Origin: Tetraselmis striata
Lineage: Eukaryota > Chlorophyta > Chlorodendrophyceae > Chlorodendrales > Chlorodendraceae
Direction of reading: 5' to 3'
Assembly (NCBI GenBank): GCA_006384855.1
Contig: VCJN01003438.1
Coordinates: 40,886 to 104,885 of the forward strand
Length of the DNA stretch: 64,000 nucleotides
The translations under genes and the position numbers were made by a program. Under the pieces are notes generated by a model. That model saw only the letters and a program-made list of their open reading frames with translations, had not been told where the DNA came from and searched no databases. Within the stretch, counting starts at the first letter, position 1. Each line of letters starts with the position of its first letter. Of the stretch, positions 26,016 through 41,140 are shown piece by piece.

Positions 26016-27390
26016 CGCGCCCGCCTCCCGGAGCAACCCGCCTATAGCGGGCGAATAAAGCGTGGCCCAAACCACCAAAGCGCGACGAGGACGCCCCGAG
26101 AGCGAGCGATGCGGATGCGAGGAACGTTGATACCACTGCTTGATGCGGTCCTCGCCCCAACAGCAAGTCGGGGCAGGCACGTTGCTTCAAGTGATACGCG
26201 AGATGGTTTCGGAGGCGGCAAACGCGCCTGCATTAACGACTATAATCGTCCTTACCTTCTCACATAAATATTAAGCGGGGGTTTGCACCGACGACAACGA
26301 CGACGATATATATACACCTTTCCACATAAGTATGGGGTTTGCGAATTCGACCCACAAGGCCATGCGCGGCTAAACTGAGACCGCGCGCGCGTGCATGTTA
26401 CTCAGGGTCGTACGGCTGGGGGGAAATGCCGCGATAGCGCGATACACCCGATATTGTCACGCGGTAGCCGTTGCCGTCAACACTTTCATTCAATAGGCAA
26501 AAGCATGGCTTCTGGCGCACGCACTTCATAACCACAAATGGCGCCATTGGTGTGCATACTTAGATAGGCATGAGACGCCACTGCCCCCGTACTCATACCA
26601 CATCACCCTTGGTGTGATATAACTACCCACCATACACGTAGGGCATGGAAATTAGGTCATTCACGACCTGGACCAAGCCCTATGTGTCGATGGCGATGGT
26701 TTTATGGGCAAAATCATGGACAAAAATGCGGTTGTGATTGTTGCACGCGCAAGCGGGAAGTAAAGGGTTCTCGCGGCCTCCTTGCCGTAGGGCAGAGCGT
26801 TTTTGTATAGTAGTGCATGGCCGCATGATTGCTCATAGCGCGCCATGGTAAGCTCAGTGGGATGGCAATGGCGTGCGCCTTAATGCGTCGATGCTGGTGG
26901 AAATAATTTAATTAGTGAAAGGGGGATCCAGCATGGCGGCCGTGGACATCGCTCAAGGGGGGCATGTGCCAAGTATGAGTGGTCCGTGCACGGGTACACG
27001 CAACATACTGTCCCGCCACAATGTATCAAGTTGTGAGATCCACTTGACGTAAAGTTACACGCCAACGTGATGAGTGACCACACGCGGACACATACGTCGG
27101 ATTTCGACCTATTTTTCTAAAACCTCAAAAAGTGCCTAAATGACCTCGGACGACGATGTTCGCCAATGAGGGAATTGTAGCCCTGCTCGCTTAGGTTTTG
27201 GTGGTTTTTTATATGAAAGCTTCTGAGTGACGTTTTCTTGCAGTGCACGGAGCTATACCGCGAGTTTGAGAGTTGCACCACAAGACAATACGAAGTTACT
27301 TCGGCTGCCCTCAAATATTTAGGTTACGCCATAGACAACGGCGCCCGGTTTTAAACGCCGCGGGTCCACCTAGGTGTGCGCCGGCGTATA
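26016..27390. other. Intergenic between GH31 gene and transposon
   Basis: AT-richer than the flanking genes. No exon, RNA gene or repeat was recognised. It should hold the GH31 promoter. Confidence 0.45.
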
Positions 27391-27391
27391 C

Positions 27392-27418
27392 AACAGTAAT
27401 GCAACCTATTTTGCCCCG
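27392..27418 (+). repeat. Left terminal inverted repeat of the two-gene transposon
   Basis: Reads AACAGTAAT, two unmatched bases, then AACCTATTTTGC and a further near-match. The reverse complement of 39962-39988 matches it at 24 of 27 positions. Confidence 0.65.
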
Positions 27419-27504
27419 AGGCACGCGGTGCATTGTGGTTAGGTCTAAATTAGGGTTTGGGGGCAGCAGTGGGATTGCAAGCTAATATGAATGCCGGTTG
27501 GTTC

Positions 27505-27725
27505 ATTTTGTGCCAAGTCGGGGAAACCAATTCCGTCCAACCAGGGACAAATCAAAAGAGTGAAGGAAACGAGATGGTTACAAGTAGTTTGCGCCGTCGG
27601 GGGCTGAAACTCTGTCCAAACTGGGACAAAAATAAGGGCGGGGGCCGTGATGGCTACAAGTAGTTTGTGCCGTCCGGGGCTGAACCTCTGTCAAAGCCGG
27701 GACAAAACATATGAGCGGCTAATTT
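27505..27725 (+). repeat. Left subterminal repeats with GTCCC/GGGAC palindromes
   Basis: A 76-bp tandem duplication starts at 27573 (GATGGTTACAAGTAG) and 27649 (GATGGCTACAAGTAG). Each unit ends in a half-palindrome of the type TGTCC-n-GGGACAAAA (27613-27633 and 27689-27707). A further copy lies at 27533-27552 and a diverged one near 27507. The right end has matching sequences at 39771-39791. Subterminal repeats of this kind often bind the transposase; binding here is inference. Confidence 0.55.
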
Positions 27726-27737
27726 TGCGGAATTGTA

Positions 27738-30700
27738 CTACGTATCATCATCTTCGATCACATAATACCCTCGGCGCTCTGCCGCCTCTCGCCTCTTCTT
27801 CGCTGCCTCAAGACGCTCTGAGAACTCCTCTGACACGGTCATTGGATGGGGTAGACCCGGCCACTTCTCGAAGTCAGTTGGACGCAGTTGTTGAGTCTCG
27901 TCCCATGGCTTCTCTTTGAACCATGAGATCATCCTGGACTTCATCCCAGCGATTTGCGTCTTCTGGTTGTCAATGAGGATAATCTTCAAGTTCCTGTGTG
28001 TGAACGAGTAGCTATGATCCATATGGTCCCACCACACGGAAAAGGCCGCAGCGACCTGGAAAAGGCGTGGCAAACCGCACAAGGCGTTAATTTTTTTATG
28101 TTGGTCCCATTAAGACACTCACCCGGGTTGCACCCCTCACGCACCGCGGTTGTCCCGGTTCCGGCTGTGACGTCGACGATTGTTGTCCCGTCTGTTGCCG
28201 CCATCTTAAGGTGCTTGGCGAAGAGAGCGATAGGCTTTTGGTACTTGTTCACCGTCTGTCTGTTCTCGTCCTTCAATTTCGAACTGTCTTTGAAGTGACC
28301 CAATATGATGGATGTAGAGAACCTGGAAAGGCACAACCGGCTTAGCGAGTAAATAAATACAAGCCGGCTATTTTCCACGGATCAAATCTCACCTTCGGGG
28401 ATCATTGAAACGGATGTTGTCAGCTATGATGCTTGGCGGGGGCTTCCTGACGTAGAGGTAGTACTCAGCGTCGTGACGCAGAGAGCTGCCCATCTTCATC
28501 CCGCAATCCTTGGCCCAAGTCAGGACGTGAAAGATGAGGTCCTCAGCTTGTTTTTGAACGGCTGTGATTGCGGATCCAAGTTGTTGGTCCGAGAGGTGAA
28601 TGACGAAATGGCACCCATCGAGAGCAGTGTGGACGTCAGAAGATCCAGTCAGGATATTCAACTGCCTGCGCGGGGGAAAAATCGGGAATGAGATAAATGA
28701 AAGCACAGTCATCTACGCACCGGGGTTGTGGGGGTTGTCTTGCCTGGCGAAAGCAAACACGTCGTTGAAGTCGTCCGTGCCCCACGCATCATCCTTCGAG
28801 TCCCATGTGTGCGAACCAGCTCCGAAAAGCGCGTCGGCAATGAAGACTGTTGCCTTTCTGGCACGAACTGCCGACATGGCGTCCGCGACGAATTGTTTTG
28901 TCGCGGGAGCCTTGAAGTTCCCCTCCACAATGCAAGTCTTGCAAAGCTCCGTGTTCAACCACACCTTGTCATCCTTGTCGACCCCTTCTCCCTTGGGCAT
29001 CACCGGAAGTTCCTCGGCCTGTGCGTAATAGAAAACAGATTCGGGTTAATGGCTCACAACGAAAATTCAGAAGAGCATTTGTGGTTGCTCAAGATCTTAG
29101 TTACCTTCATCGATATCCACAGCTCATTAGAAACATTCGGAGCGGAAACCGCGATAAGCTCCGGCGCACATGCGAGAAGAGCAAACTTTGTGAAGAAGGA
29201 GATGACCAAGTCCGGCATCTGATTCTTGATGCGATACGCCTCACTCTTGATGGTGGTGTTGGTGGCCGCGATATGCTCTCGAACCGGTAGTGGTGTGAGA
29301 CAATCTATCGGCGGATTTCATGTCCCCCCATCTGGCAGGAGGGGTCAGCAAGACCATCAAAGGACCGGAGCGATGAGCACCTTTGAACAAATCCTGGAAC
29401 TTTCTGGGGAAGCCTGTTGGGCCGAGGTCATCAACCTTGGCTTGGAACTTGGTGATAGCGTCAAGGCGAGCGGCCGCTTGCTCATCCGACACTTTGTCTT
29501 GCACATCCCAATCGATGATGTGGTCCGAGAGATATTTCCCCCAATTCCTGGCCGGTTCGTCCGGCGTCAGCAGTTGGATTGTCTCCCTGCCCTTGGCCGT
29601 GTCAATGACATTCATGAGCTTGATGCTTGCTCGACGCAAGAGATCGCGAAACCTCCAGGTCTCAATCATCGCGAGCCACTCCGCGTTGGTGTGCGTGACA
29701 GCCATGGGGCCATCGTCGCCGGCATGCTTAATGTCATCCACAAGCTCGTAGAGGCTCGGGGTCACACTGTGCTCGCCTTGGATGAGCAGTCCAACCACCA
29801 GGTACATCTGGCCCACAGGGAGATCCGCGCTGTCGCTCTGCTTGGCAAGAGACGGCTCGTCTAGCCAGGGCGCATGGGGTCCAAAGCCAACATCCTGGGT
29901 CGTAAAACAAACTTCAGTACGGAGAAAGACATGTTAGTATTCCATGTGATTAAGACACTGGGGTCGGTCACAACTTACCTCCATGAGTGCGACTCGGAAG
30001 TGAGCTCTGTCTTTGCCGAAGCCGTACTTCTTATTATCGAGGATTGCATTGATAGGCTTCCGAATTGCTTCGTAAACCTTGCTCACTTCCTTCTGGGTGA
30101 GTTGCCTGCCGGAATTGAGGCGCTTGACTCTATTGAGTTCTTGCTTGTAGTACACAAACAGGTCTCCGAGTTTGGTTCTGGCTTCGTCCCATCCTCGAAC
30201 CCCGAGGTCCACATGCCGGTAGGCTTCAGAAATCTGCTCAAGGGGCTCAAAAACACTGCGCAAATCATTTGTCAGAATCTAGCAGCATTAACAACACGAT
30301 AAATTTTCATCATGTACGCAGCTCACCGTTGTGGGCGCGAACCGAGGTCAATCAAATTTGAGAACTCGCTGCTCTTCTCATCTTTGATGCCGATCTTCTC
30401 AAGTTCAACTTGAAGAACTTCAGACTTCTTGAACTCCTTCACTACCCTGATTTGCGGGAGTGCCCTAAAGCCGGGGCGATTTGCATCCTGTTCTGCATAC
30501 CAGCTCTCGAAACATCTGCGAAGGTTCTGCAGAAACAATTGCACCGATTTCAAAATTCCGAACGATTGTACCTCGATGACAAACCGTTTCGTCCCGCTGA
30601 TGACAGACCGTTTCGTCCCGCTGATGACAAACCGTTTCGTCCCACTGATGACAGACCGTTTCGTCCCACTGATGACAGACCGTTTCGTCCCGCTGATGAC

Positions 30701-33700
30701 AGACCGTTTCGTCCCGCTGATGACAAACCGTTTCGTCCCACTGATGATAGACCGTTTCGTCCCACTGATGACAGACCGTTTCGTCCCGCTGATAACAAAC
30801 CGTTTCGTCCCGCTGATGACAAACCGTTTCGTCCCACTGATGACAAACCGTTTCGTCCCACTGATGACAAACCGTTTTGTCCCATTGATGACAGAACGTT
30901 TCGTCCCACTGATGACAAACCGTTTCGTCCCACTGATGACAAACCGTTTCGTCCCGCTGATGACAGACCGTTTCGTCCCACTGTGACATATGTTTAACAC
31001 GCTAACGAAGAACGACTTTTGTCACACTTTACGCCTATTTGCTGCCACGGTCAGCTTAATAATAATTTGGGAGAATGGGGCACTCACCAGGAGTTTGTGC
31101 ATCGACGTGTCTCCCACGACGGTGTGACCCGCCTCGTTGAGCTTCATAGACATGTAGCGGCAGACTTCCGGCGAGAGGCCGATGTACATCTTAGCCGACG
31201 TGAGGTGGATGCCTTTGTTGGCTTTGTAGATTTCCGGGTAGTTTTCTTTCACCATGCGCTTCGCCTCCCGTCTGTGGCTGCCGTCGATGTTGGCTTGACG
31301 CGCATTGCAGTACCTAAGAAAATCGATTGATGACGTCGATCTCTGGCTTGTAGGAACTTGAATCCGCCAACCTCGGGTTCTCCCCGCCTTCGTGTGCTGC
31401 GACTAGCTCCTTGAAGTTGGCCATGGTCTGAGCGAGGGGCTCGAACTCATCGGAGAAAAAATCTTGTACAGGGACTACTGGAAAGGACACCGAGAAATTC
31501 TCGGCGGACAGGGAAGGATTCCTCTGAATAACAAATGCAAGAAATGGATGTCAGTAAGTTGCATTGTGTATTGATTACCGGATAGGTACAACAGGTCGCG
31601 ATAGGCTTTTACCTTGTAGCTTTGCGCCACCATATTGCAGTCTTGCAGCTTTGGGGAACGGAATTCAAATTCCGGCGGCGGAGCGACGAACTTATCGGAT
31701 ATGAAGCTGAAAATGTGAGGCAGCCCCGTATCCTTGTCGACGACGAGGTTGACTCTGTCGGCGTATAGCGTGTTGATGTCGCCACCGTGAGATGTCTTCA
31801 CCTCTGGATCAGCAATCTCGACTCTGAGGTGGCCGTAAGAGATCCAGTCGACGGCACCGGTGTTGTGGAAGCCATTCAAGGCCGGCGGGACGGCCAACGT
31901 GTTGACGTATGGAAGCGCGTTCTTAAAATCCTTGTCAATGTTGGCCAAGTCATTGATGTCAATCTGACCACACGCGAAATCTGTCAGCGCCTGAGCCAGC
32001 ACATTGCGCTCGACCAAAGTCCATGCGTAGTAAGACTGGAACCGCGGCTGGAAGGAGAGTGGCGGTTGGATCGCGTGGAGTAGCAACCTCTCAAAGCTGA
32101 CATCGATCCTGAACTCCTTGTGCACTGTCAAGCGATAAGGTTCAAGGGAGATCTGCGGTAACAAGCATAAGAATATTAATACTTATTGAAACACGACATT
32201 GACACGAATTCAGACATCGAGTAAGCTTTACTCACCTCGTAGTTTCCGGCCGAGTCCAGCTCGACGTCCTTGATCTTTCCGATACACGCGAGAAGTGGCC
32301 CCTCCGGATCATCGAAAAAGTCCTTGCCAGTCAGCAGGCTCGCCTTGTGCAATTCGATGTACAAATAGATCTCTACCTCAGCACTTGCGTTCTTGAACCA
32401 GTGGATAGTCCAGCTCCTTGAGGTTAAGTCGCTGTAGGAGTCATCTTCTTGGGACCCGTCCCTCTCGTCAAAGAAGTCGTCGTAAGAGGCGACCGTCATC
32501 AGCTTTGTCTTCCTCTCGGGTCCAGGAGTGCCGGTGATGTCGAGAGCTTGCTTTCGCTTCTCTGCCGCCCGTTGCCTCTGTTCTTCCTCTGTGCCGAAGA
32601 CCTCTTCATCCGTGCACATACTGAGGAATTCAGGAACCCTTCTCGGAGCCTCGGCAATAGGGGCTCGAGAACCAGAGGCTCCAGAACCAGACGCTTGCCC
32701 GGTAGTCGGCGCTGGAGTCTCGGGCTCGGGCTCCGGCTCGGGCTCCGGCTCCATCTGAGTGGGCTCTGTTTCAGGCTCCGGCTCGGGCTCCGGCTCCGGC
32801 TCAGTGTGCTCTATTTCAGGCTCAGGCTTTGTTTCCGGTACTTGAGATGGGCCTTTAGACAAAGAAGAGCCTTGATTTGGGGAACCTGTAAAGAATGAGT
32901 AGAGAGTACTCAACACACCTGCAGTGGGCGTCACGATTAACTACTGAACGGTATCGCCATACACCATCAGAGCCAAGCGTAATTTTTCTTACCTGGGGAT
33001 CCCGATTTACCAGCTGCTTCCGACGCGGTTGCCTGCGCCAATTTACGACCTGTTGGAACGTCAGATAACTGATTGACGAGAAAGTAATCGGAGTGAGAAG
33101 GCAGGGATTGATACTTTAAGTCACAATTACCTGGCGTCACAATCGTCTCTGAAACCTTTTCTTTTCCCTTGGATTCCTTTGAAGCTTGAGTCGCTACTGG
33201 CTCATGTGCGCGTCCTTTCGAACCTGTCAACACACATGATTTCAAACAATGTCAATATGACACAGTGCACTCACAAAGGCAGGGATTGATACTTTCAGTC
33301 ACAATTACCTGGAGTCACAATCGTTTCTGAAACTTTTTCTTTTCCCTTGGATTCCTTTGAAGCTTTAGTCGGTACTGGCTCATGTGCGCGTCCTTTCGAA
33401 CCTGTCAACACACATGATTTCAACCAATGTCAATATGACACAGTGCACTCACAAAGGCAGGGATTGATACTTTCAGTCACAATTACCTGGAGTCACAATC
33501 GTTTCTGAAACTTTTTCTTTTCCCTTGGATTCCTTTGAAGCTTTAGTCGGTACTGGCTCATGTGCGCGTCCTTTCGAACCTGTCAACACACATGATTTCA
33601 ACCAATGTCAATACGATACAGTGCACTCACAAAAATCATATGATTGGAGAGGCAAGGACCTGATTGATAGTAAGCTTGCATGAGTTTTTCGTAATCGATT

Positions 33701-35282
33701 AGCCTTCGCGCTGTCTGCATTTGAGCATCTGAGAGGACCTGGCCGCTCTTTATTCGGGCGGTCAAAAGAGCGGCGGCCGATCTTTCTCCTTGCGAGTGCG
33801 TGCCGTAAGCCGGCACCCTACCTCCTAAAAGGCTCGGTTTCCAAGGGTTACCTGATGCCTCAGCGCCGGCTCTAGCTTCAGAAGCTGAGGCTGCACGGCT
33901 CTTCTTCGCAGCCGGCTGCTCGGGCACAGAAGATGACGCCTTGTGTTTTCTCCCGACTAGCGCTCCGAGCGCATCGAATTCTTTTGCTTTCTCGGTAGGT
34001 TTTGGTGTCCGCTTGGACCTTCGACCTATAAATATCATATCATGTCAGAGCGTTTCGTCCCAGTGATGACAGACCGTTTCGTCCCACTGATGACAAACCG
34101 TTTCGTCCCACTGATGACAAACCGTTTCGTCCCACTGATGACAAACCGTTTCGTCCCGCTGATGACTGACCGTTTCGTCCCACTGATGAGTGACAGACCG
34201 TTTCGTCCCACTGATGACAGACCGTTTCGTCCCACTGATGACATGCCGTTTCGTCCCGCTGATGACAGAACGTTTCGTCCCACTGACGACAGACCGTTTC
34301 GTCCCGCTGATGACAGACCGTTTCGTCCCACTGATGACAGACCGTTTCGTCCCACTGATGACAAACCGTTTCGTCCCGCTGATGACAGACCGTTTCGTCC
34401 CACTGATGACAGACCGTTTCGTCCCACTGATGACAAACCGTTTCGTCCCACTAATGACAAACCGTTTCGTCCCACTGATGACAAAATGTTTCGTCCCACT
34501 GATGACAAACCGTTTCGTCCCACTAATGACAAACCGTTTCGTCCCACTGATGACAAACCGTTTCGTCCCACTGATGACAAACCGTTTCGTCCCGCTGATG
34601 ACAAACCGTTTCGTCCCACTGATGACAAACCGTTTTGTCCCACTGATGACAAACCGTTTCGTCCCACTGATGACAAACCGTTTCGTCCCACTGATGACAA
34701 ACCGTTTTGTCCCACTGATGACAAAACTATTTTCAATACATTATGTACTGCGGTTTAATAATGTATTGTCTTTAAGTACTGCGCTTCACACTAATATTAA
34801 ACCACTCCTTACGGCGGAGTACAGGCAGAGGTTCCCCCTGGCCGCTCTTCACCCCCACCCCCTCCCACCACCAATTAGCATCCTTACTGCTTGCAACAGC
34901 TGCCTCGACGGGACGTAATACTACCATGCAGGACCCTGATGCCGCTCGTCTCGTTTGTGTTTATATTCCCACTCGTCCGCCTACACCTCGAGCGGTCCTA
35001 GATTACACCGCTTCTACAGGGAACCCTAACCGAATTCGCTAGATCTGGCCGCATCACGCGTCGAGCAGGCAGGCGGCTACTGTACGCTGCCACTCGTCTG
35101 CCTACACCTCGAGTGGTCCTAGATTACACCGCTTCTACAGTGAACCCTAACCGAACTCGCTAGATCTGGCCGTAACACGCGTCGAGCAGGCAGGCAGCTA
35201 CTGTACGCGCGCGCAACTCACCTGGGGTGGCGTCGTCCTTGTCTTCCTTGTCCTTGGCAGGCTCGTTCTTCTTCGGCGCCAT
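27738..35282 (-). CDS. Transposon-borne 1512-residue protein with C-terminal beta-class methyltransferase-like domain, 18 exons
   Basis: Exons (descending): 35282-35222, 34025-33660, 33579-33487, 33401-33309, 33223-33131, 33049-32993, 32885-32236, 32152-31613, 31523-31372, 31313-31088, 30526-30327, 30255-29979, 29894-29381, 29277-29105, 29018-28744, 28665-28393, 28322-28145, 28055-27738; phases close to TAG. The N-terminus is lysine-rich (MAPKKNEPAKDKEDKDD). Residues about 143-235 are a 31-residue cassette repeated three times, one exon each. About 270-320 is an acidic EPEPEPE tract. The middle (400-1165) is unrecognised. The C-terminus has a motif-IV-like ADALFGAGSHTWD (DALF about 1227-1230), then KYQKPIALFAKHL and the S-adenosylmethionine motif I IVDVTAGTGTTAVAAAF (about 1396-1412). 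The order IV then I is that of beta-class N4/N6 amino-methyltransferases. DALF replaces the usual DPP(Y/F), so activity is doubtful. Intron 15 fits best as GC-AG; several other donors are weak (exon 2 and 9 ends). Confidence 0.72.
30575..30984 (+). repeat. 24-bp minisatellite array 1 (about 17 units)
   Basis: Units contain CGTTTCGTCCCA or CGTTTCGTCCCG followed by CTGATGAC, then AAAC or AGAC. The array lies in intron 10 (30527-31087) of the minus-strand methyltransferase-like gene. The period is a multiple of three and the units lack stop codons in several frames. The frame of exon 11 therefore stays open upstream through the whole array, giving an 8-residue repeat of the ISGTKRFV type if the intron were retained. 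Confidence 0.95.
33087..33620 (-). repeat. 178-bp tandem triplication carrying a 93-bp exon
   Basis: Three nearly identical units of 178 bp each contain one exon (33579-33487, 33401-33309, 33223-33131) plus the adjoining intron. Every copy keeps the acceptor (GACAG|GT), the donor (CCAG|GTAATT) and phase-1 boundaries, so inclusion or skipping of any copy keeps the frame. Copies 2 and 3 are closer to each other than to copy 1. Confidence 0.9.
34045..34730 (+). repeat. 24-bp minisatellite array 2 (about 28 units)
   Basis: Same unit and same plus-strand orientation as arrays 1 and 3. It lies in intron 1 (34026-35221) of the minus-strand methyltransferase-like gene, ending about 20 bases from exon 2. 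One unit near 34187 has a small insertion (GATGAGTGACAG). An in-frame stop (TGA, near 34035) separates the array from exon 2 on the minus strand. Confidence 0.95.
34971..35212. repeat. 121-bp tandem duplication
   Basis: Two copies, starting at 34971 and 35092 (ACTCGTCCGCC and ACTCGTCTGCC), differ by a few substitutions. They lie in intron 1 of the minus-strand methyltransferase-like gene, just inside the exon 1 donor. Confidence 0.9.
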
Positions 35283-35827
35283 TCTGGCGGTAGGTAGGTT
35301 GACGCGGTAGATGAGAGTGTTTCTTGGTGGGAAGCGGTGAGGGAGAGGTGGAAATGACGTGGTTTCCGTCTGCCGCCGCTCTGACCCCTGCTGGACCAAC
35401 GGCGCGCGTGCGCACACTATAGTGTACCTCGTCGTCGTCATCAGGTTCATGTATTTTGCACCGCGACGAATATACAGGGCTAACTACTGCGACTATATAT
35501 TACTATTACTGGAAGATAAAATATTCCCTACTCGAGAGTCATAACGGTACGAGAGTACAGTGGCGTGGCAATAATATTCCTTCATGGGATGATATATTCC
35601 TTGGATTGGATTCGGGTGTACTTACTAGTATAGAACTATTTCCGACTTACGAAAGAAGCACGAAATAACACGGTATTTGAGTCATCAATTATTTTGACCC
35701 GTACCTGGATATTATGCACCCCGGTCAACGGCCCGTCCGAGAACGGTCATCGGCCGTCACTCTTCCTCACCACAGATCACAGTCCTTCACCCCCCCCCCC
35801 CCCCCCCACCCACTCGCCCCGCGCTGC
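35283..35827. promoter_or_regulatory. Shared intergenic region of the two divergent transposon genes
   Basis: The 545 bp between the ATG of the methyltransferase-like gene (35282, minus) and that of the transposase (35828, plus) must contain both promoters. A C run lies at about 35790-35807, within 40 bases of the transposase ATG. No specific promoter motif is claimed. Confidence 0.5.
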
Positions 35828-38800
35828 ATGGCGGCGGTCGAAAGCATGGCCTCTTCTCCAGGATCCGGCGCGTCGGACACTACAGTTACATTACCGATGT
35901 GTTCGTGCCGCAGTGGGTACTCGTGTGATTGCGACGCGCGTGCGAGTGATCGTAAGGAGCCTGAGAAAAGGAAGTACACGTGGGGCAAGGGCTGCGATGA
36001 GGTCGCCGAAAGCGGTAATGGCAAGGTCTCGTCTCTGATCAGCAAGCGCACCTCTCGCGATTGTATCCGCCTCATGCTCGCCAAGGAGGCTAGCGAGCAG
36101 TCGCCATGCTGTTCGCGCAAGTGCGTGCACAAGCTATACACACAGTGCGGAGAGGCCCTCGTTGATGCCGTGTTGGACCGTGCGTTGACCGTATACTCTG
36201 GCAATCAGAACCGCTCCTTTGACCGGCTCGCTCAGGTTCTCAGGGGTGGCTACGAGTCGGCATCCGACAAGTTCGATTACATGTTCGATCACGGTGGCTA
36301 CTTGCGATCTTTCGATCATCGCGGCCCCATCTACACGTGTGGGCGTGCGTGGGAGGTCTTGCATCAGGTCTCGAAACACATACGTCTCGTGATCCAGCGG
36401 TCGGTGGTGGATAACGAACCCACGTACATCAGGCAGCGCAAGCAATACGAGAGCAGACAGACCGGACCGAGGGAGCATGTGCGCATGTTTCTCGAGCACT
36501 TCTTCTCGGATGACCTCGGTCACGTCGAGATCATGCCTTTTCATGACGGAAACAGCGAGACCTTCAAGAAGCACCTACCTCCATGGATGACCAAGATTTG
36601 CGTCTACTACTACTACAAGTCGTGGGCCGAGGACGACAACGCCATTCTCCGTGGTGAGGCCCATTTTGTCCCACTGATGACATACCGTTTCGTCCCGCTG
36701 ATGACAGACCGTTTCGTCCCGCTGATGACAAACCGTTTCGTCCCACTGATGACAAACCGTTTCGTCCCACTGATGACAGACCGTTTCGTCCCACTGATGA
36801 CAGACCGTTTCGTCCCACTGATGACAAACCGTTTCGTCCCACTGATGACAAACCGTTTCGTCCCACTGATGACATACCGTTTCGTCCCACTGATGACAGA
36901 CCGTTTCGTCCCACTGATGACAAACCGTTTCGTCCCGCTGCTGACAGACCGTTTTGTCCCGCTGTTGACGAACCGTTTCGTCCCACTGATGACAAACCGT
37001 TTTGTCCCGCTGATGACAAACCGTTTTGTCCCACTGATGACAGAACGTTTCGTCCCGCTATCGCCAGAACGTTTAGTCCCACCGACGCCGGACCGATTTC
37101 GTCCCACTGATGACAGAACGTTTCGCACCGCTCATGGCATACCGTTTCGTCCCACCGACCACAAAAGTATTTGTCCCACATAATTAGCCGATATCGTCCC
37201 ACTGCAGAGAGAACGTCTTGTCCCACTGCTGAGAGACGGTTTTGTCCCACTACTGACATACCGTTTCGTCACACTGATGACAGATTGTTTCGCCATGCTG
37301 ATTACAGAATTATTCACCCACTACCGATATAATTATTTCGACCCACTTCAGACCGAACTTTTCTGTCTCGCATTATGAGACCTTATTTGTATACCGACCT
37401 ATTATGCCCCTGCCCCTTTGTAGATTTGGCTACCGAGAGCGAAGTGAAGCTCGCATCGTTCGACACTTTCCGCCGGACTTGGAAGGAAGACTTCCCGGAT
37501 GTCACCACTCCGAAGGTGAAGCGATTCAGCCACTGTCCCATATGCGCGGCGGGCAAAGCACTCAGAGACCAAGCTCGCGAGATTTGCACAAAGGACATGA
37601 CGCCAGAGGAACGTCAAGTGCACCGTCAACATCAGCAGCTGGTGAGGCGTCAGGTCAGAGCTGAGCAGAAGGTACACCTCGAGAGAGTGCGCCAGGAACG
37701 AAGGGATCTGAACAACGCCGTCTTCCAGTCGCGCCTTGGCCATGGAAACTTCTTCTTCTTCGAAATTGATAGCATGGACTCCGCGAAGACCCTGCTGCCT
37801 CACTGGGTTCGCATCCCCAAGACTGTGAAGCCCGACATGCTCCTCAAGTACCACCTCACCTGTGTGAAGTACGATGGATACCGCCCGGACGACATCTACT
37901 ACTACACCAACACCATCCCCCACGATTCATCCACGACGTGCACTCTGATATGGATCACGATCATGAAGGTGAGCTCGTTAGCCTCCCGATAGGTTCGCCG
38001 TGGTTGTCCGGTAGCCATGGACTGATGAAAGCTTGTCTTCGATGCAGGAAATTCAACACCGTGGTAGAAAGATTCCGTACATCAGAATCCAGATGGACAA
38101 CACCGTCAGGGAGAACAAGAATAGGAACGTGGCGGCCCTCTGCAATTGGCTTGTGTCTATCGGCATCTGCGACGTCATTCATTTGGTCTTCTTGCCTGTC
38201 GGGCACACTCACGAACGGGTTGACCAAATCTTCAGCCGCATCAGTCTTGCGCTATCTCGCAGCTCCGCCTACACAATCGAGGCCTTTCTTGACTTGGTGG
38301 CGAAGGCATTCTCGCCCACTCCGGAGATTGCTGAGCTCTCAATCTCCCTCGACTTCTCTGAGTGGTTAAGGCCCCATTTCCAAGACCACATTCTGGACAT
38401 CAGTAAGCCGCACAAATTCGAGTTCACCCGTGACGACGCCGCCGCGTCTGGCGGCTCGTTGCGCACCGCCTTGTGGTCCAACACACCGCTTTCTGAGCCC
38501 GTGCAGATCTTGAAGAGCGCGCCAACTGGGACGCCCGAGATTCGTGCGGGCCGGCCCCTTTTGTACGCTCTCTGCGACAAAAAGAAGCCCGACGCGGTGA
38601 AGGTCCAGAGGTACTTGGATGATTTCAAGAAGGTCAGGTCGTACATCACGGACCTGGCGGTCCAGTGGCACTTCTCCCCAGTCGAGCGCGAGAGCTGGAA
38701 GAATCTGCTCGACGACTTGGATGAGATGCAAACTGCTCCTTCGGCAGCTTTCTCCGGGTTCTGGCCGCAACGGAAAGAGGAAGTTGACGACTTCTTGCGC

Positions 38801-39695
38801 GAGCACGGGCAGACCGCGCCTGCTGAGGCACGTCACACGATGGCTACCAACGCAGACCTCAACAATGCCGAAGCCGCTCGCGTGGAAGCCGAGGTTCGTG
38901 CTCAAGTGCTTCAAGATGACAGCGCCTTCCGGGGAGTTCACGCCGGCGCCAAGGAGAGGCTTCATGACAACACATCGCCCAGCGATGCAAAGGGCTCGAA
39001 CCTCGTTGTCATCGACGTCTCCGATGTGAGTCCCATTGTTTGTCATTTTTGTCCTTTACGGGACAAAACAATTTGGTTCTTCTACCTTGCTTGTTATTTT
39101 GTCCCAGCTGGGACCAAAATGGCGTGGCGTCTCGCTCGGGACTAACATAGCTCGCGGTCTTGGTCATCGTTAGGTGCATGAGGAATACAAGTGTCCTGAA
39201 ACTCTTGGTGATTGGGAGTCGAGATTCGTCATCGGGCTTGTGAAGTCGCGCGAGACTACCGAAGACACGTTGACCGTGGCCGTATACGAGCCCTTCCATG
39301 CCGATGCAAAGGGCAAACCCCTCATGCCCCTATGGTTGTACGCGCAGACAAAAGGAGGGAAGAAGCCAGTTGACACAAGCTGGGAGAAGTGCTTGACGCT
39401 TCCTTGGAAGCTTGTTGAAGCCGTCCCCCTATCGTACGCGAAGGCCATCCACGACGCGTCGGGAAGTCGAGAGGTGTTCAACGAGGACGGCACCATGGTC
39501 AGAAAGAAGTGGTACGGTAAAAGCGTCCAAGTCGTGAAGACATATGCGCAAACTGGGTGGCAAATCAGCCAGCCACGAAACAACTGCGTCCACGTCATGT
39601 CAACCACCCCAGCGCAACGCAAACCCGGCGGAGTCGTCAAGTTTAACGCAGCCACGAAGAAGGACTTGCTTGAGTTGGGGATGCTCAACGAATAA
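35828..39695 (+). CDS. DDE-type transposase, DUF7869-like core, 4 exons
   Basis: Predicted to cut and join the ends of the surrounding element. Exons 35828-36653, 37424-37968, 38048-39025 and 39174-39695 join in phase to 956 residues. The N-terminus has a Cys cluster (MCSCRSGYSCDCD, about 24-36). Residues about 310-317 give a CPIC knuckle. The RNase-H-like core follows: EIDSMDSAKTLLPHW (Asp391/Asp394, first acid), IQMDNTVRENKN (Asp474, second) and LPVGHTHERVDQIFSRIS (Glu513/Asp516, third). From memory this triad and its spacing match the DUF7869 family of eukaryotic transposase-like proteins; other proteins of that kind also start with Cys-rich regions. The start at 35828 (MAAVESMASS) was taken because the frame further upstream crosses the C run; 35714 is an alternative. 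Intron 1 holds minisatellite array 3, into which exon 1 reads in frame. Confidence 0.85.
36660..37350 (+). repeat. 24-bp minisatellite array 3 (about 19 clear units, then degenerate)
   Basis: It starts 6 bases after the donor of transposase intron 1 (36654-37423), with clear 24-bp units to about 37110 and increasingly diverged units to about 37350. Same orientation as the other two arrays. The exon 1 frame runs through the array to about 37183 without a stop, as an 8-residue repeat of the RFVPLMTD type. Confidence 0.95.
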
Positions 39696-39961
39696 ACTAT
39701 CAGCAACGTCTTGTGGCTAGCTAGCCGCGGGATGTAATAATCATAATAAATATTGATTTCATTGCCTCATCTTGTCCCATTTGGGACAAAATGCTCCAAA
39801 ACCAACATTGGATATGCGTCGCGGCTGGCCTTCATGCTGTTGAATGCTGCACTGCACCCAAGGTCTACAAACCCAAGCTACATCACCAATGAGTCTTAAG
39901 TACTGATAGTAAACCCGGGAAATAGGGTATAAACAAACCCTACGGTGCAAAATGAATTCCA

Positions 39962-39988
39962 CGGCGCAAAATAGGTTAAATTACTGTT
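39962..39988 (-). repeat. Right terminal inverted repeat of the two-gene transposon
   Basis: The reverse complement reads AACAGTAAT, two unmatched bases, then AACCTATTTTGC, pairing with the left repeat at 27392-27418. It ends within about 10 bases of SINE copy B. Confidence 0.65.
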
Positions 39989-39996
39989 CTCTATAA

Positions 39997-40220
39997 ATGC
40001 GAGAGACCCGGGTTCGATTCCTGGCCGATGTATTTCGGCAATATCGGCCCGGTGTGTCCCGGGTTTACCCGGTTGATGCATTAGCCCTTCGGGGTTCGAA
40101 TGAGGCAATGGTCTACGGGCTATGCCAGACCTACGACTGCAGTTGGCGCACGAGGTCAAGTGCTGGGGCGGCTTCGGCCGATGTCCCGGGGCGAACTTCA
40201 CTTTCCTTTCTCTGTAAATG
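39997..40220 (+). repeat. tRNA-derived SINE, copy B (head truncated)
   Basis: It begins at GCGAGAGACCCGGGTTCGATTCC (B box region from about 39999) without an A box upstream. The body and tail are shared with copies A, C and D. Its head abuts the right end of the transposon. Confidence 0.8.
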
Positions 40221-40289
40221 TAGTACGCGCGGAGTATAGCGACTATGATTTTTTCTACCACGTACAGTAGTCGTAAAAGTAAAAGTAAA

Positions 40290-40512
40290 GTTCACCTCGG
40301 CCCGGGACATCGGCCGAAGCCGCCCCAGCTTGACCTCTTGCGCGTACTGCAGTCGTAGGTCTTCTGGCATAGCCCGTAGACCATTCGAACCCCGAAAGGC
40401 TAATAATGCATGAACCGTGTAAACCCAGCAGGACACGCCGCGACGATATTGCCGAAATACATCGGCCAGGATTCGATACCAGACCTCTCATCGCGAACGA
40501 GACGAGCCACAT
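40290..40512 (-). repeat. tRNA-derived SINE, copy C
   Basis: Read on the minus strand: head TGGCTCGTCTCG (A-box-like), B box GGTATCGAATCC, then the shared body and tail. It faces copy B tail-to-tail across about 70 bp, so the two can form a long hairpin. Confidence 0.8.
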
Positions 40513-41140
40513 ACTCGTAGTTGCCGCCTGACTACGGTACCGCCAGACTAAGGTACGGGCACCAGTACCCGACGTGGATATATTATTATTCAAGTTTTTA
40601 AATCCGGCACCCGCCGTACCCTGTTTGTCTACTGGTTTGGTATACCGATGAGGTTCCCGGTACTGTATAAAGGATGTATCCTGCTGTACGTCAGTCAATG
40701 CCCGTCGACCTAACTCATCCCCGACCCACAACCACGCCGCCACAACAGCCACCACCGCAGCGAAGCGTGCAGACTCTCGGATACCTGCCGCCAATCCTCT
40801 GAAGGTTGGAATTACTGGGTATTTTCTGCGCCGGAATTGCATGGGCCCCATCCTACACACATATGAGGACGCTTTAATTGGCGTGTGCCGGCAACATCTT
40901 GCGGTAGTCGCAAGCCTTCGGCGACAGCCGGTCATTATTATCGGAGGTGTCGACGACCTCGCCGGTTCGCGCTGATCGGACGACGTCTCCTGCTCAGGCC
41001 CACCCCAGTACACCCATGGGCTTGGCACCCCGTAAACGCCAACCCTGCTGATTATTGACAGCCCTGATTCCTGAATAAATCTCTCGCACGTCGCTTCTCT
41101 GCCCCGTCCCTACGCCGCAGAGCCACATACAGTCTCCACG
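40513..41140. other. 5' flank of the CMP-KDO synthetase gene
   Basis: No coding exon was recognised. A long minus-strand open frame (40255-41028) overlaps SINE copy C and has no recognisable motif. Confidence 0.4.

Follow-up and report, generated by a model that had tools for sequence, protein, structure and literature searches.

Does the 64,000-nt stretch of Tetraselmis striata DNA analysed here (the window; positions 40,886 to 104,885 of contig VCJN01003438.1, assembly GCA_006384855.1) hold a mobile element, and what does the second gene of that element do? Based on the letters alone, the original prediction had placed a DNA transposon of about 12.6 kb at 27391..39991, with one gene for a DDE transposase resembling the Pfam domain DUF7869 and, on the other strand, one for a methyltransferase (MTase)-like protein. 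We found that the element, here named family 1, is indeed a high-copy DNA transposon of T. striata: most copies share exact ends, inverted repeats are present, and an empty site was recovered. The second protein keeps the S-adenosylmethionine (SAM) motif of amino-methyltransferases and shows a non-canonical catalytic motif IV.

The T. striata assembly (224,097,584 bases, 2,903 contigs; the window is C2770 40886-104885 in our numbering) was searched with 1.6-kb pieces from both ends of the element, and 40 places were scored for each end, the window's own included; these were drawn from 464 left and 488 right candidates, so that our copy counts are lower bounds. At the left end, 35 of the 40 places started at query base 1-2 (28 of them at base 2, position 27392) and five further inside; the left copy L005 matched only from query base 13 and was missed by the end pattern. 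At the right end, all 40 stopped at query base 1598-1601 (29 at 1598, position 39988). Other copies with the same ends, within 3 bases, are therefore common in the genome, and most copies end at the same bases. The ends lie 1 and 3 bases inside the predicted ones, and the inverted repeats, predicted to be 27 bp long, span 30 bp:

27392..39988, no strand: complete family-1 element, 12,597 bp, with the boundary common to the scored copies
27392..27421, + strand: left terminal inverted repeat, AACAGTAATGCAACCTATTTTGCCCCGAGG, matching the right repeat at 26 of 30 bases
39959..39988, - strand: right terminal inverted repeat, reading AACAGTAATTTAACCTATTTTGCGCCGTGG on the - strand

Both repeats open with AACAGTAAT, and a wider pairing of 27387-27421 with 39959-39993 is 83% complementary over 35 nt. 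Flanks were read for 7 left ends and 30 right ends of family 1, and all differed from one another. The best matches of the window's two proteins were T. striata (Tetstr1) models, with 87% and 100% identity. Identity of the other copies to the window was 95-99% at the left end and 99% at the right end and, because the right ends are this similar, family 1 is by sequence a recently amplified family. Two further observations concern the surroundings of the ends. On contigs C67 and C313, left and right ends share a contig in orientations unfit for one simple copy, perhaps as nested or recombined copies. In the window, a long fold-back inverted repeat (40001-40489) starts 12 bp past the right end of the element, its 59-nt arms being 85% complementary and its inner arms up to 100%.

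Filled sites were compared with an empty one. A flush 4-bp target duplication was present in 4 of 6 two-ended family-1 copies (C154, GTTC; C735, AACT; C2428, CTGT; C1497, CCTG). The C154 copy is inserted in repeated sequence, and its flanks, joined at a single GTTC, matched 40 of 40 scored places (318 candidates) with 98% identity over 450-455 nt, gap-free in both of the two matches checked. These places are paralogous empty sites.

The transposase gene has four exons separated by GT-AG introns and is open throughout, encoding 956 aa with a sole stop at the end:

35828..36653, + strand: exon 1, N-terminal part (open reading and GT-AG junctions; T. striata models match)
37424..37968, + strand: exon 2, with the first catalytic Asp in EIDSMD
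38048..39025, + strand: exon 3, with QMDN, GHTHERVDQ and the rest of DUF7869
39174..39695, + strand: exon 4, C-terminal region, stop at 39693-39695

Its product matched DUF7869 (PF25273) with 147.2 bits (E 5.7e-43; the Pfam cut-off is 26 bits), and the acidic residues fall in the motifs originally named, D391 in IDSMD, D474 in QMDN, and E513/D516 in GHTHERVDQ. In the structure model, the core of the DUF7869 protein appears integrase/transposase-like, with a predicted RNase H-like core carrying the D-D-E/D residues, which fits the DDE transposase/retroviral integrase superfamily. A search with the transposase gave 57 matches; five came from outside T. striata, their contigs (2.8-6.7 kb) being too short to show a partner gene. 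The DNA pattern for FLPVGHTHE had no match in viral contigs, and no mention of DUF7869 was found in the literature searched.

A second, diverged family of 17 kb (family 2; L050/L048/L046, C761:75258-92320) starts on contig C761 at 75258 with AACATTCG; the shared sequence stops near 92320, and other copies extend to AATGTT, giving termini AACATTC../..AATGTT. Family 2 has its own minisatellites of about 25 bp, a DUF7869 gene (EIDGMD, QLDN, RHTHERVDQ) on one strand and an MTase-like gene on the other. Between the families, the transposases are 29-35% identical (best E 1e-56) and the MTase-like domains about 28% (E 1e-14); judged by these alignments, the two genes of family 2 are far-diverged homologues of their family-1 counterparts. 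Duplications of 4 bp flank 5 of 8 assessable family-2 copies (TATT, CACT, GTTA, CATC, CTTG); the left end of the C1134 copy was not recognised. Beside the C761 copy, at L050:150-1274, open frames resemble a tyrosine recombinase by eye and are perhaps another mobile element, in whose end the family-2 copy is inserted.

Exact ends, 4-bp duplications, the paralogous empty site, the modelled fold and the second family support a transposon. Some results weigh against this. Neither the window copy nor C914 has a target-site duplication, and the former may therefore be recombinant or rearranged; in family 2, C1697 and C401 have none, and C541 carries an 11-bp repeat instead. Foldseek alone gave no match at E 0.001 or better. 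That the locus is a host gene family, a satellite or an integrated virus is nevertheless very improbable, since the common termini, inverted repeats and target duplications speak against it and the empty site contradicts it; the minisatellite arrays inside the element would suit such an origin, for which no other support was found. Host-gene and satellite readings were rejected because the copies share their termini and an empty site exists, neither gene was single-copy in the T. striata genome scans, and a Pfam scan of both gene products yielded neither a capsid family nor any other structural family of viruses. Sola1 elements make 4-bp target duplications, and both families are probably of this group because of their layout, large size and 4-bp duplication, an assignment that goes by duplication length and the published layout rather than by comparison with Sola1 sequences. 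We thus have good confidence that the element is a high-copy DNA transposon of T. striata that moves by cut and paste and probably belongs to the Sola1 group; its DUF7869 protein would bind the AACA.. ends, would cut with its D-D-E/D residues and would insert the element with a 4-bp stagger.

The second gene is arranged head to head with that of the transposase, the two start codons being 545 bp apart:

27741..35282, - strand: accessory MTase-like gene with some 17 exons, assigned by eye from GT-AG junctions (models of other copies, P0001-P0083)
31088..31313, - strand: exon carrying the IDGSHRREA box, which resembles ParB in its motif only
28721..29019, - strand: exon with the motif-IV position, IADALFG replacing [DNS]PP[YFW]
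28393..28666, - strand: exon with HFVIHLSDQQL, lying between motifs IV and I, from the PF01555 alignment
28145..28322, - strand: exon with SAM motif I (DVTAGTGTTA)

Both genes had been predicted to be divergent, full-length and consistent in phase. They are divergent and the transposase gene is intact, but the MTase-like gene of the window copy has two frame breaks, at about 31.33 kb and 29.29 kb, neither of which interrupts the T. striata model P0011, derived from another copy. We take the assembly to be PacBio-based, and the two breaks could for that reason be assembly indels. At 33131-33579 of the window, one 93-bp exon of this gene stands in triplicate tandem (178-bp unit, 97% matches). 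A search with the MTase-like protein (7,997 candidates scored) gave 83 matches, all labelled T. striata except P0053, a 4.2-kb metagenome contig; the family-2 protein gave 3, all T. striata.

To what extent do the two genes belong together? Genome scans gave 104 places matching PF01555 (N6_N4_Mtase) and 150 scored places, of 548 candidates, matching PF25273. A PF25273 place lay within 16 kb of 34 of the 104 PF01555 places, and all 34 pairs were divergent, the MTase-like gene travelling head to head with the transposase gene; the remaining 70 include bacterial contaminants, family 2, and places with an unscored DUF7869 partner. Among the 28 typed DUF7869 places of family 2, nine have an MTase place within 26 kb, again all divergent (9/9). 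A contrary result came from the third DUF7869 family (P0131; at C652:18953-21761 and some 30 further places): none of its 31 typed places had a PF01555 match within 26 kb, and the MTase-like partner, common as it is, is for this reason apparently not obligatory.

The original prediction had this gene end in a SAM motif of the beta-class amino-methyltransferases. The likeness and the motif stand: the window copy matched PF01555 at E=1.4e-5 and 25.6 bits, just under the cut-off of 26.7, models P0001 and P0003 scored 25.4 and 26.2 bits, other family-1 copies reached about 25.6-29.4 bits in the genome scan with introns read through, and the family-2 domain scored 37.9 bits, above the cut-off. Motif I is kept, as DVTAGTGTT in 12 of 12 family-1 models holding DVTA and as DVTCGTGTT in family 2. 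Motif IV is non-canonical. Its position, assigned by eye from the surrounding pattern and outside the hidden Markov model alignment, reads IADALFG in 40 of 40 readable family-1 models and, at the DNA level, ADALFG in 20 of 20 copies; the family-2 counterpart is ADSNYG, with DSNYG in all four sequences read, so that neither family (DALF, DSNY) has the catalytic form [DNS]PP[YFW]. Active enzymes carry SPPY, DPPY, NPPY or DPPW (PMC8885841). Given a SAM motif that is kept and a motif IV that departs from the canonical form, we call the accessory protein MTase-like and not a proven methyltransferase, with methylation as a candidate activity only. The departure in motif IV also makes methylation less certain than a role of the protein in cis on the element, to which we give just short of an even chance.

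Is the accessory protein an active amino-methyltransferase that marks the element with N6-methyladenine (6mA) or N4-methylcytosine (4mC) and thereby shields it from silencing or regulates excision? We find this doubtful. The continuation of the SAM motif as GTGTT, and the Asp and aromatic residue remaining in motif IV of both families, would fit an active enzyme. The best NCBIfam match was the adenine methylase CcrM, far under its cut-off (24.2 and 17.6 bits versus 830), and for a related protein of Ectocarpus the authors predict 4mC or 6mA (PMC12477816). Both motif-IV prolines are gone in both families, on the other side, and in the bdelloid N4CMT the change of SPPY to APPA abolishes activity, the residues removed there being Ser and Tyr, not Pro-Pro (PMC8885841).

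We also evaluated constraint on the MTase-like domain by the ratio of nonsynonymous to synonymous differences (pN/pS) in 20 copies, a non-random sample of the window, 7 of its closest matches and 12 copies chosen among the more diverged ones, with gapped and stop codons left out of the sums. By exon, the ratio was 0.35 before motif I, 0.55 in the motif-IV exon and 0.67 in the motif-I exon. The domain thus appears, from these sequences, to be under mild purifying selection, which is compatible with a gene used during the spread of the element and then decaying. Arguing against a role in the element are the weak pooled ratio of 0.68 over four exons, the 0.96 of the C-terminal tail, internal stops (3 in the exon before motif I, 2 in the motif-IV exon) and indels (3 copies in the exon before motif I, 3 in the motif-IV exon, 0 in the motif-I exon and 4 in the tail). 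A passenger gene without function for the element would explain an overall ratio not far under 1, the stops and indels of some copies, and the third family, which shows no such gene. It would not explain a homologous partner in head-to-head layout in two families with transposases only 29-35% identical, nor the similar pair published in a brown alga (PMC12477816), and we regard it as unlikely.

Upstream of the MTase-like domain, a DGSHRREAK box was found in 50 of the 57 models holding QANIDG. We take it to resemble the G.RR..A box of ParB proteins, and a resemblance was also seen to the ParB of a contaminant (L089). The HRREA box occurs in both families, and this stretch aligns between them only weakly (E 0.045). 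Several searches gave no support for a ParB domain: no Pfam ParB match was obtained in P0001, P0011, P0003, P0053, one family-2 exon or two assembled segments, and no NCBIfam ParB match in two assembled segments, P0139 or P0001. With the ParB_N model, the genome search gave 4 places, of whose contigs only the bacterial-looking C1010 is also in the PF25273/PF01555 match lists. The AlphaFold model made for this question was unusable, with a predicted local distance difference test (pLDDT) score of 29.5. Contigs C1010 (L089, L090) and C2009 (L091) look bacterial and carry a classic ParB protein and DNA methylases with DPPY or DVPY; on reading, their strong PF01555 matches and the C1010 ParB are probably bacterial contaminants and were rejected as algal.

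The introns of both genes hold minisatellites built on a shared box, TTTYGTCCC:

30575..30988, no strand: 24-bp minisatellite with 17 TTTYGTCCC boxes, in an intron of the MTase-like gene
34051..34725, no strand: 24-bp minisatellite with 28 boxes, in intron 1 of the MTase-like gene
36664..37308, no strand: 24-bp minisatellite with 20 boxes, in intron 1 of the transposase gene

The element contains 70 boxes, 65 in these three arrays and 5 outside, against 0.28 expected from 300 first-order-chain sequences, an expectation that is not a corrected test for a box picked by eye after being seen. None occurs in the other 51,403 bp of the window. Two of the five outlying boxes lie within 310 bp of the element's left end. 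Their conservation does not favour a function: at 39783 the box occurs in the window copy alone (0 of 29 others), and the remaining four persist in 16/19, 18/19, 29/29 and 28/29 copies, a conservation that does not exceed that of their surroundings. The idea of boxes near the ends as conserved binding sites thus gains no support from extra conservation, and TTTYGTCCC boxes are candidate binding sites only, as read from the sequence. No comparable shared box was found in family 2 (one 9-mer only).

In another reading, the MTase-like domain has lost catalysis and acts in DNA binding or dimerisation, within a transposition cofactor or an anti-silencing protein. The arrays of one box in three introns favour this, as does the alteration of motif IV in every readable model and DNA copy together with the mild constraint on the domain exons; the kept SAM motif, which a dead fold does not need, speaks against it. 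We hold this reading tentatively, as possible but short of probable. Such a protein would be akin in its role to VANC of Vandal elements. A Vandal self-silencing regulator is mentioned in PMC12730594. A more specific proposal, which we consider improbable, is that the accessory protein has a remodelled MTase fold and is a DNA-binding factor that targets its own element: it would recognise TTTYGTCCC boxes and, by way of a non-canonical DxxF/Y active site or by binding alone, would set the chromatin or transpososome state of the element's own copies. The boxes in three introns and near both ends would then be bound much as ParB binds repeated sites. Were this so, a transposon-borne epigenetic module whose catalytic chemistry is altered would have been retained by two diverged families of the same genome.

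The original prediction knew of no described element with this gene pair and layout, and here it was mistaken. PMC12477816 (Genome Biology 2025) describes a giant DNA transposon of Ectocarpus, Sola1-1_Ec32, in which a ParB-MTase gene faces that of the transposase; in the authors' proposal, proteins of this kind bind the transposon that encodes them and modify it, and similar proteins of green and red algae are cited (refs 50 and 51, the former a 2011 chapter on methylation systems, the latter Petroll et al. 2025). As in our families, the accessory gene stands on the strand opposite the transposase in the same element, and in Ectocarpus it encodes a long protein with a 4mC/6mA-type MTase domain. 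Sola1-1_Ec32 measures 21.5 kb versus 12.6 and 17 kb in T. striata, a likeness by description and not by sequence, and a ParB domain is reported in it, whereas in the T. striata families the resemblance is at motif level only. The 2011 chapter is reportedly that of Iyer et al.

Other systems are alike in part. Sola2 elements with Fanzor share 4-bp duplications, short inverted repeats and a second protein, but their duplications are AT-rich and Fanzor stands in place of the MTase (PMC3627910), the likeness again being of descriptions and not of transposases. Fungal KDZ, Plavaka, hAT7, IS3EU and PHISTA elements show that several superfamilies carry a DNA-base-modifying enzyme, there a TET/JBP dioxygenase and not an MTase, with other transposases and duplications of 2-8 bp (PMC12730594). 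KDZ/Zisupton identity was rejected, its duplication being 8 bp (PMC12730594) versus 4 bp in the T. striata families. DNMT-bearing retrotransposons of Symbiodinium and Dam-bearing DIRS elements are likewise mobile elements with DNA methyltransferases, algae included, but they are retrotransposons with cytosine or Dam-like adenine enzymes (PMC5890265).

In conclusion, the pairing of a transposase with an MTase-like gene is already in print for a brown alga; added here are two high-copy families whose ends are exact, together with an empty site, a modelled fold for DUF7869 and the consistent absence of the Pro-Pro pair of motif IV. The uncharacterised Pfam domain DUF7869 is linked to mobile DNA by the precise ends of the element, its 4-bp target duplication, the empty site and a modelled integrase-like fold. 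A transposon carrying a DNA-modifying enzyme is plausible, an idea weakened here by the altered catalytic motif, which suggests that the label MTase on such accessory genes is no proof of methylation. Two high-copy families in one alga allow the idea that transposons mark their own DNA to be tested directly.

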